34,642 nt of DNA from a virus: positions 1 to 34,642 of the IMG/VR virus record IMGVR_UViG_3300037133_000285, one strand, 5' to 3'. The first letter of the stretch is position 1. Each line of letters begins with the position of its first letter. Shown here in pieces: positions 2,364-34,642 of the stretch. The position numbers were made by a program, and so were the translations under genes. The notes beneath the pieces were generated by a model, which ran no database searches, was not told the DNA's origin, and saw only the letters and a list, made by a program, of their open reading frames with translations.

Positions 2364-3428
2364 ATGTCTGGATATAGAGTGGTGTTCTCGGAATTCTGGG
2401 ATGGTGAGACCGGTCTGGCGCTCGGGGCGCTTGGCCGTGATGCTCAATTGACGGCGATGTACCTGCTTACCGCGCCCACCTCGCACATGACGGGGCTGTA
2501 CAAACTGCCGCTGAGTGCCGTGATTGAGCATCTCGGGCTCACGATGGACCCGGCCGCGGCGCTTAACCAGGTGCTGAGCGACATGCGCAACCTGGAGAAG
2601 ATTGGGTTCGCACACTACGATGCTGATTCCAAAGTCGTGTTCATCCCCAACATGGCCCGCTTTCAGCTTGGGAAGAAACTGAGCGCCGGAGACAAACGCG
2701 TGTTCATGATCCGGACGCACCTGATGACTTTCCTGAGTTCTCCGTTCATCGGAGCGTTCTTGGATGCGTATGAAGAGGCATTTAACCTTCAGGATGTACG
2801 AAAGGCCCTGGATATGCGGGTTCCGATGCCCCTTCGAAGGGGCATGGTAAGGGGCTTCGAAGGGGCATCCAAGAGCGAGGTCGAGCGAGCAACAGTAACA
2901 GAACCAGTAGCAGTAACAACAACAGCAACTGATCAGGACCCGGCTGTGTTGTCTTCTTCACAGGAATCTGCAGAGCCCGCATCCCTGAAACCCGACAAGC
3001 AGCACCCCTGGGACGCCCTCAGCTATGTGATGGCCCTGGATGAAGAGACCGGCGTCGGCAACTTCACCACCTTGATCGCCAGAGATGTTGTCTACTGGCA
3101 CACGGTGAAGTCAACCAGCCCTTACTGGCAGTCGCGCCATGCGGATATTAGCAGTCACGTCCGCCTGGCGACGGCGCTGCCGTTGATGCAAAGGCAGATG
3201 GAGATCGAGACCCCTCACTACGAATACCCTGCCAACGCCTTCGACCGTGAGCAGGTGCCTGATCCTGATTGCAAGCTGTGCGCCGGTGTGGGCAGCACCT
3301 GTGAAGATGATCCAGATCCCCGGTACCCGGCCGCGATGATGCTACAGACGCAGCGGATGTGCTCCTGCTTGGTGCCCGGCCGGTTCAATTGGGAGTTTGC
3401 TGAACGTGCTGAGAAGCGGGCGGCATGA
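2364..3428 (+). CDS. Replisome organizer / helicase-loader-like protein
   Basis: A 354-residue protein using the ATG at 2364 with GGAG at 2348-2351; a TTG at 2346 directly after the previous stop is possible but weaker. Residues 1-140 resemble the winged-helix domain of phage replication initiators: a short strand, then a helix with LGALGRDAQLTAMYLLT, the segment GLYKLPLSAVIEHLGL, and a wing ending in VVFIPNMARFQLG. A Ser/Thr/Ala-rich linker (about residues 155-215) follows, then a helical C-terminal domain with a Cys cluster (CKLCAGVGSTC, later MCSC) that could bind a metal. The order helicase then organizer, and the linker encoding repeated DNA, parallels lambda O. It likely binds the origin and recruits the ATPase upstream. 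Confidence 0.6.
   Translation: MSGYRVVFSEFWDGETGLALGALGRDAQLTAMYLLTAPTSHMTGLYKLPLSAVIEHLGLTMDPAAALNQVLSDMRNLEKIGFAHYDADSKVVFIPNMARFQLGKKLSAGDKRVFMIRTHLMTFLSSPFIGAFLDAYEEAFNLQDVRKALDMRVPMPLRRGMVRGFEGASKSEVERATVTEPVAVTTTATDQDPAVLSSSQESAEPASLKPDKQHPWDALSYVMALDEETGVGNFTTLIARDVVYWHTVKSTSPYWQSRHADISSHVRLATALPLMQRQMEIETPHYEYPANAFDREQVPDPDCKLCAGVGSTCEDDPDPRYPAAMMLQTQRMCSCLVPGRFNWEFAERAEKRAA
2825..2935 (+). other. Candidate phage replication origin inside the replication gene
   Basis: A perfect 20-bp palindrome (arms ATGCCCCTTC / GAAGGGGCAT) lies at 2826-2845. A second copy of its right part, CTTCGAAGGGGCAT, lies at 2855-2868, ten bases further on. A low-complexity stretch rich in AAC/AGT triplets follows at about 2885-2930 and could be easier to melt. 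The cluster falls exactly in the linker-coding part of the organizer gene, as the lambda origin iterons fall inside gene O. Two repeat units are few for an origin, so this is an inference. Confidence 0.45.
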
Positions 3429-3523: not shown

Positions 3524-3746
3524 GAAGCGCACTACGGCCGCGCAGCTCAAACCGCATTGGCGGAATTTCAGCGACGCAGCACACGCCCCATTCAAAAAGC
3601 TGCCCTGCGCTCAATCGCTGCGTCCCGATGCACGCGTCTCGCAGGCTTACGTAGAGCGCAGCCCCGTTGCGCGTGCCATCATCGCCGCTTGGCGGCCGTG
3701 TCTCGCTTGGCAGAGCCTCATCCGCGTTGAAGAGTTGGCCGCGTGA
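3495..3746 (+). CDS. Hypothetical basic protein, 83 residues
   Basis: The ATG at 3495 is preceded by GGAGG at 3482-3486, a good ribosome binding site; upstream in-frame codons lack one. The product is strongly basic in its first 30 residues (MTARKLTDHKKRTTAAQLK) and ends with a hydrophobic, Trp-containing helix. I recognise no family. Its stop overlaps the GTG start of the sigma-factor-like gene, so the two are likely coupled. A small DNA- or polymerase-binding early protein would fit, but nothing shows it. Confidence 0.5.
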   Translation: MTARKLTDHKKRTTAAQLKPHWRNFSDAAHAPFKKLPCAQSLRPDARVSQAYVERSPVARAIIAAWRPCLAWQSLIRVEELAA

Positions 3747-4276
3747 CTCCGAACTCACTTCACGCCTCATACCTTCTCTTTCAGGCTGGTGCCATGAGCC
3801 TGGAAGGCTTGCTGTTGCTCTCTCAGCCGTTCATAGAGCACATCGCCCGGCAGAAGCGTCCTGGTGACGCCCAGGACCTCACCCAGGAGGTTCTCGTCAA
3901 GGTGTGGCAATGCATTGCCGGCTTCGAAGGCAGATCGAGCTATACCACCTGGCTGCGTAGACTCACTCTCAACTTGATCACAGACAAGATCCGACATGAA
4001 CGGTCGATGCTGGCTAACGCCACTATCGTCGAGATGCCGGCACAGGAGACGCAATGCAGTGACGGCCATGATGAGCCGTTCTACGCATACGACTCTCTGC
4101 ATGTGCCGCTCACACCTGCACAGGCTGACCTCGTGCGTGCGTTGCTCGACGGCGATGACCTGCGTGACATCGCAGATGGGACGGGACTCACGCTCAAGGC
4201 CGTTCGCAATCGATTCGACCGCATTCGTGACAAGTGCCGGGGATTCCATTCTGTATCTGCGTCTGTGTATGTGTAG
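3743..4276 (+). CDS. ECF-like RNA polymerase sigma factor
   Basis: A 177-residue protein with the two helical modules of group 4 (ECF) sigma factors. Region 2 runs from about residue 25 to 85 and includes DAQDLTQEVLVKVWQ (from D42), GRSSYTTWLRRLTLNLITDK and a basic end. After an acidic linker, region 4 at about residues 125-168 carries LTPAQADLVRALLDGDDLRD and the helix-turn-helix TGLTLKAVRNRFDRIRDK. Length matches ECF sigma factors. GTG at 3743 overlaps the previous stop; ATG at 3794 is an alternative and keeps both regions. No anti-sigma gene is adjacent. It probably redirects host RNA polymerase to phage promoters, perhaps for the late operon starting nearby, which is an inference. Confidence 0.8.
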   Translation: MTPNSLHASYLLFQAGAMSLEGLLLLSQPFIEHIARQKRPGDAQDLTQEVLVKVWQCIAGFEGRSSYTTWLRRLTLNLITDKIRHERSMLANATIVEMPAQETQCSDGHDEPFYAYDSLHVPLTPAQADLVRALLDGDDLRDIADGTGLTLKAVRNRFDRIRDKCRGFHSVSASVYV

Positions 4277-4890: not shown

Positions 4891-5229
4891 ATGCCTTCAA
4901 AGCCGTTGCGCCCTTGTCCATATCCGCTCTGCCCCGGCTTAGTCGCCTCCGGGTATTGCGATGCACACAAGGGCGCGGCCTCCACGTTTGGGTTTCGTGG
5001 CACGGCCAATAGCAGGGGTTACACCTATGAGTGGCAGCGATTCAGGCTTGCATACCTCCGGCTACATCCTCTCTGTGTTGACTGTGAGAAGCGTGGCATC
5101 GTGACCCTGGCTACGGACGTGCACCACATCAACAAGCTACGGTTCGCACCGGGCCTGAAGTACGACGCCGGCAACCTGATGGCGCTCTGTTCAGACCATC
5201 ATGACGAGCGCACGCGGCGCGGCGAATAG
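4891..5229 (+). CDS. HNH endonuclease (packaging-associated)
   Basis: A 112-residue protein with an N-terminal Cys/His cluster (C9, C14, C23, H26) and a C-terminal HNH core: CVDC at residues 62-65, DVHHI with H78/H79, the Asn in NLMAL (N95), then C100 and DHH (H103/H104). These are the zinc ligands and catalytic His of the beta-beta-alpha-metal nuclease fold. In HK97-type phages a small HNH protein next to terminase stimulates cos cleavage by the large terminase. The location upstream of both terminase genes fits that role. The ATG follows the preceding stop with no gap, so it is probably coupled. A homing-type HNH is the less likely alternative. Confidence 0.85.
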   Translation: MPSKPLRPCPYPLCPGLVASGYCDAHKGAASTFGFRGTANSRGYTYEWQRFRLAYLRLHPLCVDCEKRGIVTLATDVHHINKLRFAPGLKYDAGNLMALCSDHHDERTRRGE

Positions 5230-5346: not shown

Positions 5347-5880
5347 ATGAACGGTCGGGGTATTTCATCATTAATGAAGATTTCCGACCTCATCGCCGAC
5401 AGCAGGAACGCGAATAAAGGCACCAAGCGCGGCTCTGAGGCCGTCAAGCGGTCTCTCAGGGACTTCGGCACTGGCCGCAGCATCTTGATTGACTCCAAGG
5501 GCCGCATCATCGCCGGCAACAAAACGGTGGCCAATGCGGTCGCGGCCGGACTGGACGAGGTGATCATCGTTCCTTCTGACGGCACCAAGATCGTTGCCGT
5601 TCAACGCACCGACCTGGACCTGGAGACGGACCCCAGAGCAAAAGCGCTGGCCGTGGCAGACAACCGCACCGCCGAACTTGGCCTCGAATGGGACCCTGAC
5701 ATTCTCCGAGAGTTGTCCGGAGAGATCGACTTGCTGCCTTACTTCGATGTGAACGAGTTGAAAGAGCTTGGCATCACCGAGCCGGACTTCGCACCAGGTA
5801 CTGAGGGAGAGCAAGGCAAGCTAGATGAGAAAAGCCCCATCGAATGTCCCAACTGCCATCACAAGTTCAGTCCCAAGTAA
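5347..5880 (+). CDS. ParB-like nuclease-domain protein with CxxC tail
   Basis: A 177-residue protein (168 if the ATG at 5374 is used). The N-terminal 110 residues match the ParB/Srx-type domain that phages place beside DNA-modification genes: MKISDLIADSRNANKGT, then a strand and GRIIAGNKTVANA (about residues 53-65), the altered form of the ParB 'aGerR' box, and AKALAVADNRTAELG. The following FDVNELKELGI is also typical. Its last 12 residues hold CPNCHH (C167, C170), half of a zinc ribbon. The end overlaps the Mom-like gene by 56 bases. A role in guiding or regulating DNA modification is likely from context. Plasmid-type partitioning is unlikely because there is no ParA. Confidence 0.75.
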   Translation: MNGRGISSLMKISDLIADSRNANKGTKRGSEAVKRSLRDFGTGRSILIDSKGRIIAGNKTVANAVAAGLDEVIIVPSDGTKIVAVQRTDLDLETDPRAKALAVADNRTAELGLEWDPDILRELSGEIDLLPYFDVNELKELGITEPDFAPGTEGEQGKLDEKSPIECPNCHHKFSPK

Positions 5881-6598
5881 AGGACTCCATCTCGACTGGG
5901 CATCCTTCGAAGCGGCCAAGTTCGCCGTTACACACTGGCACTACTCTCATTCGACCCCACCCGGAAAGCTCGTCAAGATCGGCGTGTGGGAAGACGGCCA
6001 GTACATCGGTTGCGTGTTGTTCGCCCACGGCGCGAACAACCACATCGGCAGCCCATACGGCTTAACTCAGACCGAGACGGCGGAGCTAGTCCGCATCGCT
6101 CTACGCGGCCATAAGGCACCGGTCTCAAGGATCGCTGCTATCGCGATCAGGTTTCTCCGTAAGCAGTCTCCCGGCCTCCGGTTGATTGTCTCCTATGCTG
6201 ACCCGCAACAAGGGCATCACGGCGGCATCTACCAGGCTGGGAATTGGGTGTACGTCGGGCTTGGGACTGCAAACCGTCATCTCCTCATCAACGGCAAAGC
6301 GGTGCACAAGCGGACCGTCTCCTCTGCATACGGAACCACCGAAGTGTCTGTTCTACGAGATAAGTTCGGGCTGGACGCAACCAACACGGACCCGTCACGG
6401 AAACACACATACCTGATGCCCCTGGATGACGCCATCCGCACGCAGATCACGAAGTTGAAAAAGCCTTACCCCACGCGAGTGAAAACGGACGCGGTGAGTA
6501 CCCCTCATCAGTCGGCGGACGAATCCGACCCGCTCGCTCCAGAATTGATGCCGCATGGCCGGACGCAGACCCAAACCGACAGCCCTGAAACTGCTTGA
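5825..6598 (+). CDS. Mom-like adenine-modification protein
   Basis: A 257-residue protein matching the Mom family of phage Mu, a GNAT-fold enzyme that converts adenine to N6-(carbamoylmethyl)adenine and so blocks many restriction enzymes. Recognisable blocks are HWHYS (residues 37-41), KLVKIGVWEDGQYIGCVLFA, ETAELVRIAL, VSRIAAIAIRFL, SYAD (123-126) and GGIYQAGNWVYVG (Y136). A KHTYLMPLDD and PYPTR tail follows, then a disordered end. Only one ATG precedes the domain, at 5825 inside the ParB-like gene. The 3' end overlaps the small terminase. It would modify phage DNA before packaging. The precise chemistry cannot be inferred from sequence alone, and host-range of the modification is unknown. 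Confidence 0.85.
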   Translation: MRKAPSNVPTAITSSVPSKGLHLDWASFEAAKFAVTHWHYSHSTPPGKLVKIGVWEDGQYIGCVLFAHGANNHIGSPYGLTQTETAELVRIALRGHKAPVSRIAAIAIRFLRKQSPGLRLIVSYADPQQGHHGGIYQAGNWVYVGLGTANRHLLINGKAVHKRTVSSAYGTTEVSVLRDKFGLDATNTDPSRKHTYLMPLDDAIRTQITKLKKPYPTRVKTDAVSTPHQSADESDPLAPELMPHGRTQTQTDSPETA

Positions 6599-7061
6599 AG
6601 GTAACCCCGGCAAGCGGCCTCTTAACCGCTCAGAGCCCAAGCCGGCCGGGATACCGAAGTGCCCAGCACACCTGGACAAAGCAGCGAAGGCCGAATGGAA
6701 ACGCATCTCCGGAGAACTCATTACCCTCGGCCTGCTGACCTCCGTTGACCGAGCAGCACTGGCCGCGTACTGCTGCGTCTGGTCGCGCTGGGTTTCAGCA
6801 GAGGACAGCCTTCAGAAGTTCGGCCTGGTGATCAAGTCGCCGAAGAGCGGCTTTCCTATTCAGAACCCCTACGTAGGGATTTCGAACACGGCCACGGACC
6901 AGATGCGCAAGTTCCTGATCGAGTTCGGGATGACTCCGGCCAGCCGCTCGAAGATCAGCGCAGACGGTGCACCGGGTGAGATGGGCGGCGCGTTAGGAAA
7001 GCTCCTCAATGACCGCAACAGAATCCGGAATGCAGGCAAACCAGCCTCGGCATCCGGCTGA
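6555..7061 (+). CDS. terS: P27-family terminase small subunit
   Basis: A 168-residue protein starting with the signature of P27-type small terminases, GRRPKPTALKLLEGNPGKRP, followed by AHLDKAAKAEWKRI, a helical middle (DRAALAAYCCVWSRWVSAED) and a region ending NPYVGISNTATDQMRKFLIEFGMTP. It recognises the packaging site and hands DNA to the large subunit. It begins 44 bases inside the Mom-like gene and ends 53 bases inside terL, so translation of all three is probably coupled. Length is normal for the family and all expected parts are present. Confidence 0.92.
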   Translation: MAGRRPKPTALKLLEGNPGKRPLNRSEPKPAGIPKCPAHLDKAAKAEWKRISGELITLGLLTSVDRAALAAYCCVWSRWVSAEDSLQKFGLVIKSPKSGFPIQNPYVGISNTATDQMRKFLIEFGMTPASRSKISADGAPGEMGGALGKLLNDRNRIRNAGKPASASG

Positions 7062-33376: not shown

Positions 33377-34642
33377 TTACGCGGTCACCACAACACCCAT
33401 CGCCCGCAGGGCAGCGACGGACTTGTCCTCTAACTGCTGAAGTCGCGGCTTGACCCACGGTGCATAATGCTTTTCTGTCGTCTTGATGGAGGTGTGTGTC
33501 AGCAGCTTGCTAACATCCTCCAGTGCCACCCCCGCCAGCAAAAGTTCGACGGCATAGGTATCCCTGAGCATGTGGGAGTGGAAGCCCATCGGTTCACCCG
33601 TCTCCGGATGCTTGAAATTCAGGAACGGCGCCATCCCCTTAATGATCTGCGTCCATTTCGTGGTCAGACTCGTCCAGTTCTTCCGCCCGATGTTCCAGAA
33701 AAAGTGACCCGGACGGAAGGTGGGCCGATCCGGTGACAAGGCAACCAGCGCCTCGGCAACGTAATCGGGGATTATCCGGTTCTCGATCTTTGCGCCGGTC
33801 TTTTTCGTGATCAGACTGAGGCGGTTACCCACCAGCCCGGTGCGCGGCAACATCAGGCAGTCCAGAATGCGCAGACCAGCCCACCGCTGGAGAAGGAACA
33901 GCGCTTTCAACTCCTTTGCGAAATCTTTGACCTCAACCTCAGCCGGCTGTGAAGCTGTGAACGGCTTGATGGCGTCGAACAGTTGCAGGAACTGGGTTGC
34001 CGTGAGTGGTTGGGTGACTTCCTTGCCTTTCGGTATCCCCTTGAAAGAAGCAGTGGGGTCACTCCGCAGATGCCCCATGGCAACCGCCCACCGGCAGAAC
34101 TGGCGTAGGCGACCCTGAAAGGTTGACTGGCTGGTCGGGCCGATGCGACTGTACTCTTTCTCGGCCTCTTCACCCCACATGCCGCGCCACTCATCCAGCG
34201 CAGCGGGAGTGATCTCGTGGACGTTGATGATCTTGACGTCCTTCGCCCATGCACAGATGCGCCAAGCCGCCCGCTTTTGCACGATGGATGTTGCCTCCGT
34301 CTTAGCCTTGAGGGAGCGCAACCAGCGGTCAGTCGCAATAGTCACCGTGATATTCTGACTGGACTGGAGTTCAACCTTTTGAGCCTCTTGCTCCTCAATT
34401 TCCAGCAGGCGTTTCTTGATTGGATCGCGTCGGTCACGCTCATGCTGGGCGAACTTCTCTGCCTCCTCCCACGACCTAGTCTTGGCGGACACGAACGTCG
34501 TCTTGCCCCCCTCGTAAATGTAGAGCGACTTGCGGCAATTGCAGCGCTTCCACTGCGGATCAGTCTTGGGACACTTGACGCCCTTGTTGGTGCCGTGACG
34601 GGTGAAGACGGTGATGGTCGTCGTACTCGGTTCGTTTGCCAT
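33377..34642 (-). CDS. int: Tyrosine integrase
   Basis: A 421-residue tyrosine recombinase, its ATG the last base triplet of the window (34640-34642). The arm/core N-terminus has an unusual Cys cluster (CPKTDPQWKRCNCRK) and FVSAKTRSWEEAEKFAQ, as in integrases from Acidobacteriota. The core-binding helices follow (WLRSLKAKTEATSIVQKRAA). The catalytic domain has the first Arg in RWAGLRILD, a Lys-containing beta hairpin (LITKKTGAKI), HMLRD (His and second Arg), LLTHTSIKTTEKHY (His and the nucleophile Tyr). All catalytic residues are present, so it should be active. The attachment site should lie outside the window, beyond 34642 or before position 1. Confidence 0.93.
   Translation of the reverse strand: MANEPSTTTITVFTRHGTNKGVKCPKTDPQWKRCNCRKSLYIYEGGKTTFVSAKTRSWEEAEKFAQHERDRRDPIKKRLLEIEEQEAQKVELQSSQNITVTIATDRWLRSLKAKTEATSIVQKRAAWRICAWAKDVKIINVHEITPAALDEWRGMWGEEAEKEYSRIGPTSQSTFQGRLRQFCRWAVAMGHLRSDPTASFKGIPKGKEVTQPLTATQFLQLFDAIKPFTASQPAEVEVKDFAKELKALFLLQRWAGLRILDCLMLPRTGLVGNRLSLITKKTGAKIENRIIPDYVAEALVALSPDRPTFRPGHFFWNIGRKNWTSLTTKWTQIIKGMAPFLNFKHPETGEPMGFHSHMLRDTYAVELLLAGVALEDVSKLLTHTSIKTTEKHYAPWVKPRLQQLEDKSVAALRAMGVVVTA

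Follow-up and report, generated by a model that had tools for sequence, protein, structure and literature searches.

In phage Mu, the zinc-finger protein Com (62 residues, CCCC type) binds mom mRNA at a hairpin close to its translation inhibition structure (PMC6483171); as annotated, the com and mom genes share 80 nt. The locus described here lies in a 34.6-kb virus record (the window, 34,642 nt) and resembles Mu com-mom (PF10122, PF25680) in having a Mom of the same family, whose start is overlapped by an upstream gene with a CxxC motif. Unlike Com, the upstream protein of the window has a ParB fold and is not a 62-residue, four-cysteine, RNA-binding zinc finger; its tail is a single C-terminal knuckle, which is kept without an overlap and is also present at cytosine-C5 methyltransferase loci.

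Three other described systems bear on the comparison. Fusions of the ParB fold to methyltransferases have been described in phages, in an account that does not mention Mom (PMC12704722). These fusions (phrog_498) share with the window the ParB head, the HNH-ParB-X-TerS slot and a modification enzyme as partner; they differ in that the enzyme is in cis and a CPxC tail is absent, whereas in the window Mom is separate and ParB is tailed. Mom has also been described in jumbo phages, together with a GNAT-ABC ATPase modification system, and ParB is absent from that account (PMC7824862). Loci with ParB followed by ABC-ATPase-GNAT (phrog_11143) are like the window in the ParB head, the shared slot and a separate, predicted DNA acyl-modifier, and unlike it in having another short ParB C-terminal domain and an unrelated partner protein. 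Finally, the ssrA island integration modules of Dehalococcoides list a ParBc protein (210 aa) and a Mom homologue (270 aa), so that co-occurrence of ParB and Mom is already known (PMC3146451). Compared by their description, these modules likewise keep ParB-domain and Mom genes together; they are genomic islands and not phages, and their description there mentions neither the tail nor a rule linking tail and partner. The literature covered, too limited for its silence to be more than weak evidence, gave no description of either.

The ParB-like and Mom genes and their surroundings

The genes of the locus and its flanks are as follows.

4891-5229, + strand: HNH endonuclease (PF01844, phrog_144), left flank of the slot
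5347-5880, + strand: ParB-fold (ParB/sulfiredoxin-like) protein, 177 aa, probable true start 5374
5825-5880, + strand: parB-like/mom reading-frame overlap, 56 nt including the stop codon, in different frames
5825-6598, + strand: Mom-family DNA-modification acyltransferase, 257 aa, core from residue 21
6555-7061, + strand: terminase small subunit (TerS; PF05119, E 3.4e-29), right flank of the slot

The window carries terminase, portal, protease, capsid, tail and integrase genes and probably belongs to a temperate tailed phage. The integrase-like gene at the end of the record (33377-34642, - strand; phrog_1, E 6.7e-35) points to a temperate habit. The TerS gene shares 44 nt with mom, and upstream of the module the phage encodes a sigma-70 region-2 protein (3743-4276, + strand; PF04542, E 9.1e-12).

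The initial annotation had called the two genes ParB-like and Mom-like, described them as an overlapping pair with a CPNCHH tail on the upstream product, and noted that Mom enzymes are rare. The coordinates and the overlap, of 56 nt, proved correct, and both labels are borne out. The downstream product is a genuine Mom, matching PF25680 (E 7.4e-46, 156.8 bits, above the curated cutoff of 27.1) and phrog_1384 (E 2.5e-51), and the family profile matches the solved Mom structure 8bv8 with an E of 2.7e-57. Across 41 aligned Moms, that of Mu included, H39-Y40, E87-L88-R90, S123, D126 and Y136 are among the invariant residues. The AF2 model of the window Mom has a pLDDT of 84; residues 1-20, which result from the early start and whose codons lie within or next to the overlap, have predicted disorder (pLDDT 55-61 versus 97 in the next block). 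The remark on rarity is fair: in two samples of bacterial genomes, a Mom above the cutoff was present in 5 of 341 and in 4 of 398.

For the upstream protein, the ParB fold is supported by a match to phrog_620 (E 6.6e-26, covering residues 10-175), by solved ParB/Noc chains in the PDB that the family profile matches at ~1e-12, and by an AF2 model (pLDDT 83) for which Foldseek returned ParB 7bnr as the top PDB match (E 6.7e-4). A Pfam scan of the window ParB alone gave no matches, PF02195 included, unlike other family members, which do match PF02195. As homologues begin near 'MKISDL', translation probably starts at 5374 rather than 5347. The P-motif reads GNKT and not the canonical GxxR of ParB CTPases, which is kept in 30 of 40 homologues. 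ParB-fold proteins that were tested need the arginine of GxxR to bind nucleotide (PMC12704722), and the lack of this arginine in GNKT makes a nucleotide-driven clamp doubtful for the window protein.

The C-terminal tail and the start of mom

Three further features fall at the end of the parB-like gene.

5788-5877, + strand: putative adapter tail, F148...QGKLD(E)...CPNCHHKF, residues 148-177, with residues invariant in 40 homologues
5813-5816, + strand: AAGG, candidate Shine-Dalgarno for mom, 8 nt before the ATG at 5825
5845-5856, + strand: CPNC zinc-knuckle-like codons (C167-C170), read from the sequence, with synonymous variation in homologues

The window ParB ends in CPNCHHKFSPK, with C167 and C170 within CPNCHHKF. 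When 40 Mom-linked ParB homologues with 20-61% identity to the window protein are aligned, the invariant positions are two glycines of the head and F148, L159, D160, C167, P168 and C170 of the tail, the two tail cysteines being the sole conserved ones, as the initial annotation's count of two would have it; such a pattern is not due to chance. The tail consensus is FxPGTEDDQGKLDELxPKxVxCPHCxxEFDxR; all 96 distinct Mom-linked tails carry CPxCxxx[FWY], and 92 carry a QGxLD-type motif. The codons for the tail cysteines and proline differ synonymously among homologues, which places the constraint on the protein. Use of the QGKLDE codons as a ribosome site and ATG for Mom was considered as the reason for their conservation and rejected as a general one, since the motif persists at loci where the Mom start lies 175-230 nt away. 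The AAGG, inside the parB-like gene, may serve as the Shine-Dalgarno of mom in the window.

The initial annotation had suggested that the ParB-like protein may carry a reduced Com-like function; on this reading the protein or its tail would bind the mom message close to the overlapping start and open it for translation. The idea, which we consider very improbable, draws on the fact that an upstream gene with a cysteine motif overlaps the mom start, as in Mu, and on the local resemblance of the one knuckle to Com. Against it, the tail is independent of the overlap, persisting at loci where a small ORF intervenes and Mom starts only 175-230 nt downstream; it also precedes cytosine-C5 methyltransferases; it has two cysteines versus four in Com; and the window ParB matches neither PF10122 nor phrog_13819, both of which Mu Com matches. 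On these grounds of distance, partners, cysteine count and profiles, Com-like translational control was rejected as the main explanation. An hhalign comparison with Com gave a probability of 5% over 11 columns. At homologous loci the overlap varies in size, or the ParB and Mom genes are separate. RNA around the window mom start is less structured than its shuffles (z = +1.2), in a test for which Mu, scoring -1.3 and +0.3, is a weak control; across the Mom starts of 57 homologues the mean z is -0.05, with the Mu control likewise weak, and the alifold covariation term of +0.13 gives no covariation support in what is a low-power test. A separate Com gene was also sought in the window, which has no small sense-strand ORF with two CxxC motifs and only two antisense chance ORFs of that kind.

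Recurrence of the pair in phages and bacteria

The pair recurs well beyond the window. Searching viral sequences with only Mom as the query gave 80 loci, and the CPxC tail is present on the directly upstream ORF in 70 of them. Most of the rest have <300 nt of upstream sequence, a ParB that is broken, two Moms in tandem, or an additional ORF, as at L080, where it separates the upstream gene from Mom. At L078, a Mom of the window clade lies beside a ParB that has no tail. L071 (1674-3621) was considered as a ParB-Mom fusion and rejected, as it holds a tail-bearing ParB (variant CKNC) and then two tandem Mom genes.

Among named phages, the pair occurs in Enterococcus phiEf11, Salinibacter B2_17, Arthrobacter Shade and Microbacterium Phonegingi, each time in different surroundings. 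The search across phages suggested in the initial annotation returned ParB-Mom pairing in otherwise different contexts, and not a conserved synteny with unrelated neighbours. Elsewhere, Mom keeps other company: in Mu and Pseudomonas JD024 it is preceded by Com or a Com-like ORF, and in VSiP and P12002L a Mom homologue has neither ParB nor Com upstream. Among the sampled bacterial genomes, three of the six clear cases (L300-L302) have Mom without ParB, L311 has a Com-like sequence upstream of Mom, and the upstream DNA of L312 is too short to judge. L303 (ParB 2100-2654, Mom 1498-2133, - strand) pairs a window-clade Mom with a ParB of different C-terminus, and its short C-terminal domain resembles, by eye, those of ABC-GNAT-linked ParBs. 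The tailless ParBs of L078 and L303, each beside a window-clade Mom, indicate that the tail is not strictly needed.

Some loci have a small gene within the pair. An ORF of ~60-77 aa separates ParB and Mom in L143, L148, L152-L155, L175, L179 and L205, and in Arthrobacter Marthavirus a small ORF (gp70; L109, 2774-2998) occupies the same place. A tRNA between the two genes of marine loci was considered and rejected, as ARAGORN found none there and the space between them is taken up by a small ORF poor in cysteine. L196, L204, L211 and L226 have Moms of a second clade, nearer to Mu Mom, with a different ParB C-terminus (GLNxNSNGNA...).

Partner enzymes and a proposed role for the pair

We compared tails with partner enzymes in a census of viral and genome loci that combined several ParB and Mom queries, and in which tail-bearing forms are over-represented. 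Distinct tail-bearing ParBs have Mom as partner in 96 cases, a C5-methyltransferase in 12 and another partner in 3, the last with no known modification partner nearby. The distinct tailless ParBs comprise 75 fused to an N4/N6-methyltransferase, 17 before an ABC-ATPase-GNAT gene, 4 with a Mu-like Mom, 1 with a Mom of the window clade and 17 with an unrecognised partner; the tail is thus found in 0 of 75 fusions and 0 of 17 ABC-ATPase-GNAT loci. The partner families, PF25680, PF00145 and ABC with a weak GNAT match, are enzymes with a known or predicted role in modification. The link between tail and partner type has a Fisher p of 7e-31 with the fusions left out, in loci that share ancestry. A tree of the head domain, built with the tail columns left out, gave 7-8 supported independent contrasts, all in the same direction (p 0.008-0.016), from a short alignment with many forks unresolved. 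The comparison suggests that the C-terminus of ParB goes with the kind of modification enzyme alongside.

The same relation is visible within one fixed slot, ordered HNH-ParB-X-TerS-TerL, in which all three ParB/enzyme arrangements occur. ParB heads of the slot loci are 54-74% identical to that of the window, and a TerS 57-80% identical to the window's follows in L082 and L084-L097. Position X is Mom, with a tailed ParB, in the window, L002 and L009; ABC-ATPase-GNAT, with the other short ParB C-terminus, in L084, L086-L088, L089, L090 and L092; and an N4/N6-methyltransferase fused to ParB in L085, L091 and L094-L097. HNH is syntenic on the left in L084-L089, L091, L095-L097, L002 and L009; some slot loci showed no HNH on that side. 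In this slot, the head stays and the ParB C-terminus and the enzyme swap together.

That exchange bears on two alternatives. The pair could be an accessory cassette, whose genes share only joint travel and translational coupling, with ParB acting independently (in regulation or segregation) and the tail unrelated to Mom. Phage accessory genes do cluster, small extra ORFs can intervene between the two, and some Moms have no ParB; the tracking of enzyme class by the ParB C-terminus, in the fixed slot and family-wide, and the recurrence of the pair in unrelated contexts make this quite unlikely. A restriction-modification-like arrangement, in which unmodified DNA is cleaved by the ParB-fold protein or the neighbouring HNH protein, with Mom shielding the phage genome, would fit the HNH gene just upstream in the window, the common annotation of ParB-like domains as nucleases, and the fusion of Mom to REase-fold domains in jumbo phages (PMC7824862). 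We judge it distinctly improbable, given that the ParB head here has no nuclease active-site evidence, that the pair has no annotated HNH neighbour in phiEf11, Shade or Phonegingi, and that such an arrangement does not predict the rule linking tail and partner.

The reading we favour, and think rather probable on the pattern of conservation, is that ParB is a DNA-targeting accessory of Mom and that the tail is a docking adapter for the separately encoded enzyme. The pair would then be a two-subunit phage DNA-modification module, in which Mom would acylate adenine and ParB would recognise or hold DNA and bring Mom to it, and which may protect the phage DNA. The overlap or close spacing of the genes would then reflect ordinary translational coupling, keeping synthesis of the two subunits in balance. 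The initial annotation had offered a modification complex as its other suggestion, and this part, separated from the Com-like one, gains indirect support from the conserved pairing, the co-variation of C-terminus and enzyme, and the ParB-methyltransferase fusions; these fusions indicate that a ParB head can work covalently joined to a modification enzyme. Counting against the favoured reading are the two window-clade Moms beside tailless ParBs, the Moms that have no ParB, the three tailed ParBs lacking a known modification partner nearby, the occurrence of CPNCHHKF on unrelated proteins, the lack of a conserved cysteine pair in Mom, and GNKT in place of GxxR in the window ParB.

The tail, F..G..x.QGxLD...CPxCxxxF, would dock or dimerise through a metal site to which more than one chain contributes, since each chain gives only two conserved cysteines, the candidate ligands by which ParB may bind zinc. 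The site could be completed by two ParB tails or with the partner's help. In the Rad50 zinc hook, one zinc is held by a CxxC from each of two chains; the likeness of the ParB tail to it is one of analogy only, with neither homology nor a coiled coil, and with a zinc that is putative here. A site shared with conserved Mom cysteines was rejected, as the 41 aligned Moms have no conserved cysteine pair able to complete it. This lack, with the two conserved cysteines per ParB chain and a tail common to partners of unrelated folds, speaks for homodimerisation as the tail's whole role: two CPxC tails would hold a single zinc between them and stand in for the C-terminal dimerisation domain that this ParB lacks, and ParB would load onto DNA as a dimer and contact the enzyme elsewhere. 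We regard this as unlikely; homodimerisation alone leaves the absence of the tail with ABC-GNAT and fused methyltransferases unexplained, unless those C-termini dimerise too.

Extending the docking reading, the ParB head may be an exchangeable targeting subunit, with short C-terminal adapters, the CPxC tail as half a zinc site among them, that select a separate Mom or C5-methyltransferase as an alternative to fusion, a proposal to which we give somewhat less than an even chance. If true, phage ParB-like proteins now labelled only as partition or nuclease proteins would gain a testable job, the ParB C-terminus could serve as a predictor of the neighbouring enzyme's kind, and ParB-Mom would be a defined two-component system.

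The knuckle also occurs outside this family. Two unrelated, coiled-coil-like phage proteins, in L102 (ending at 3057) and L103 (ending at 3045), carry the tail IECPNCHHKF, which points to CPNCHHKF as a portable C-terminal element.
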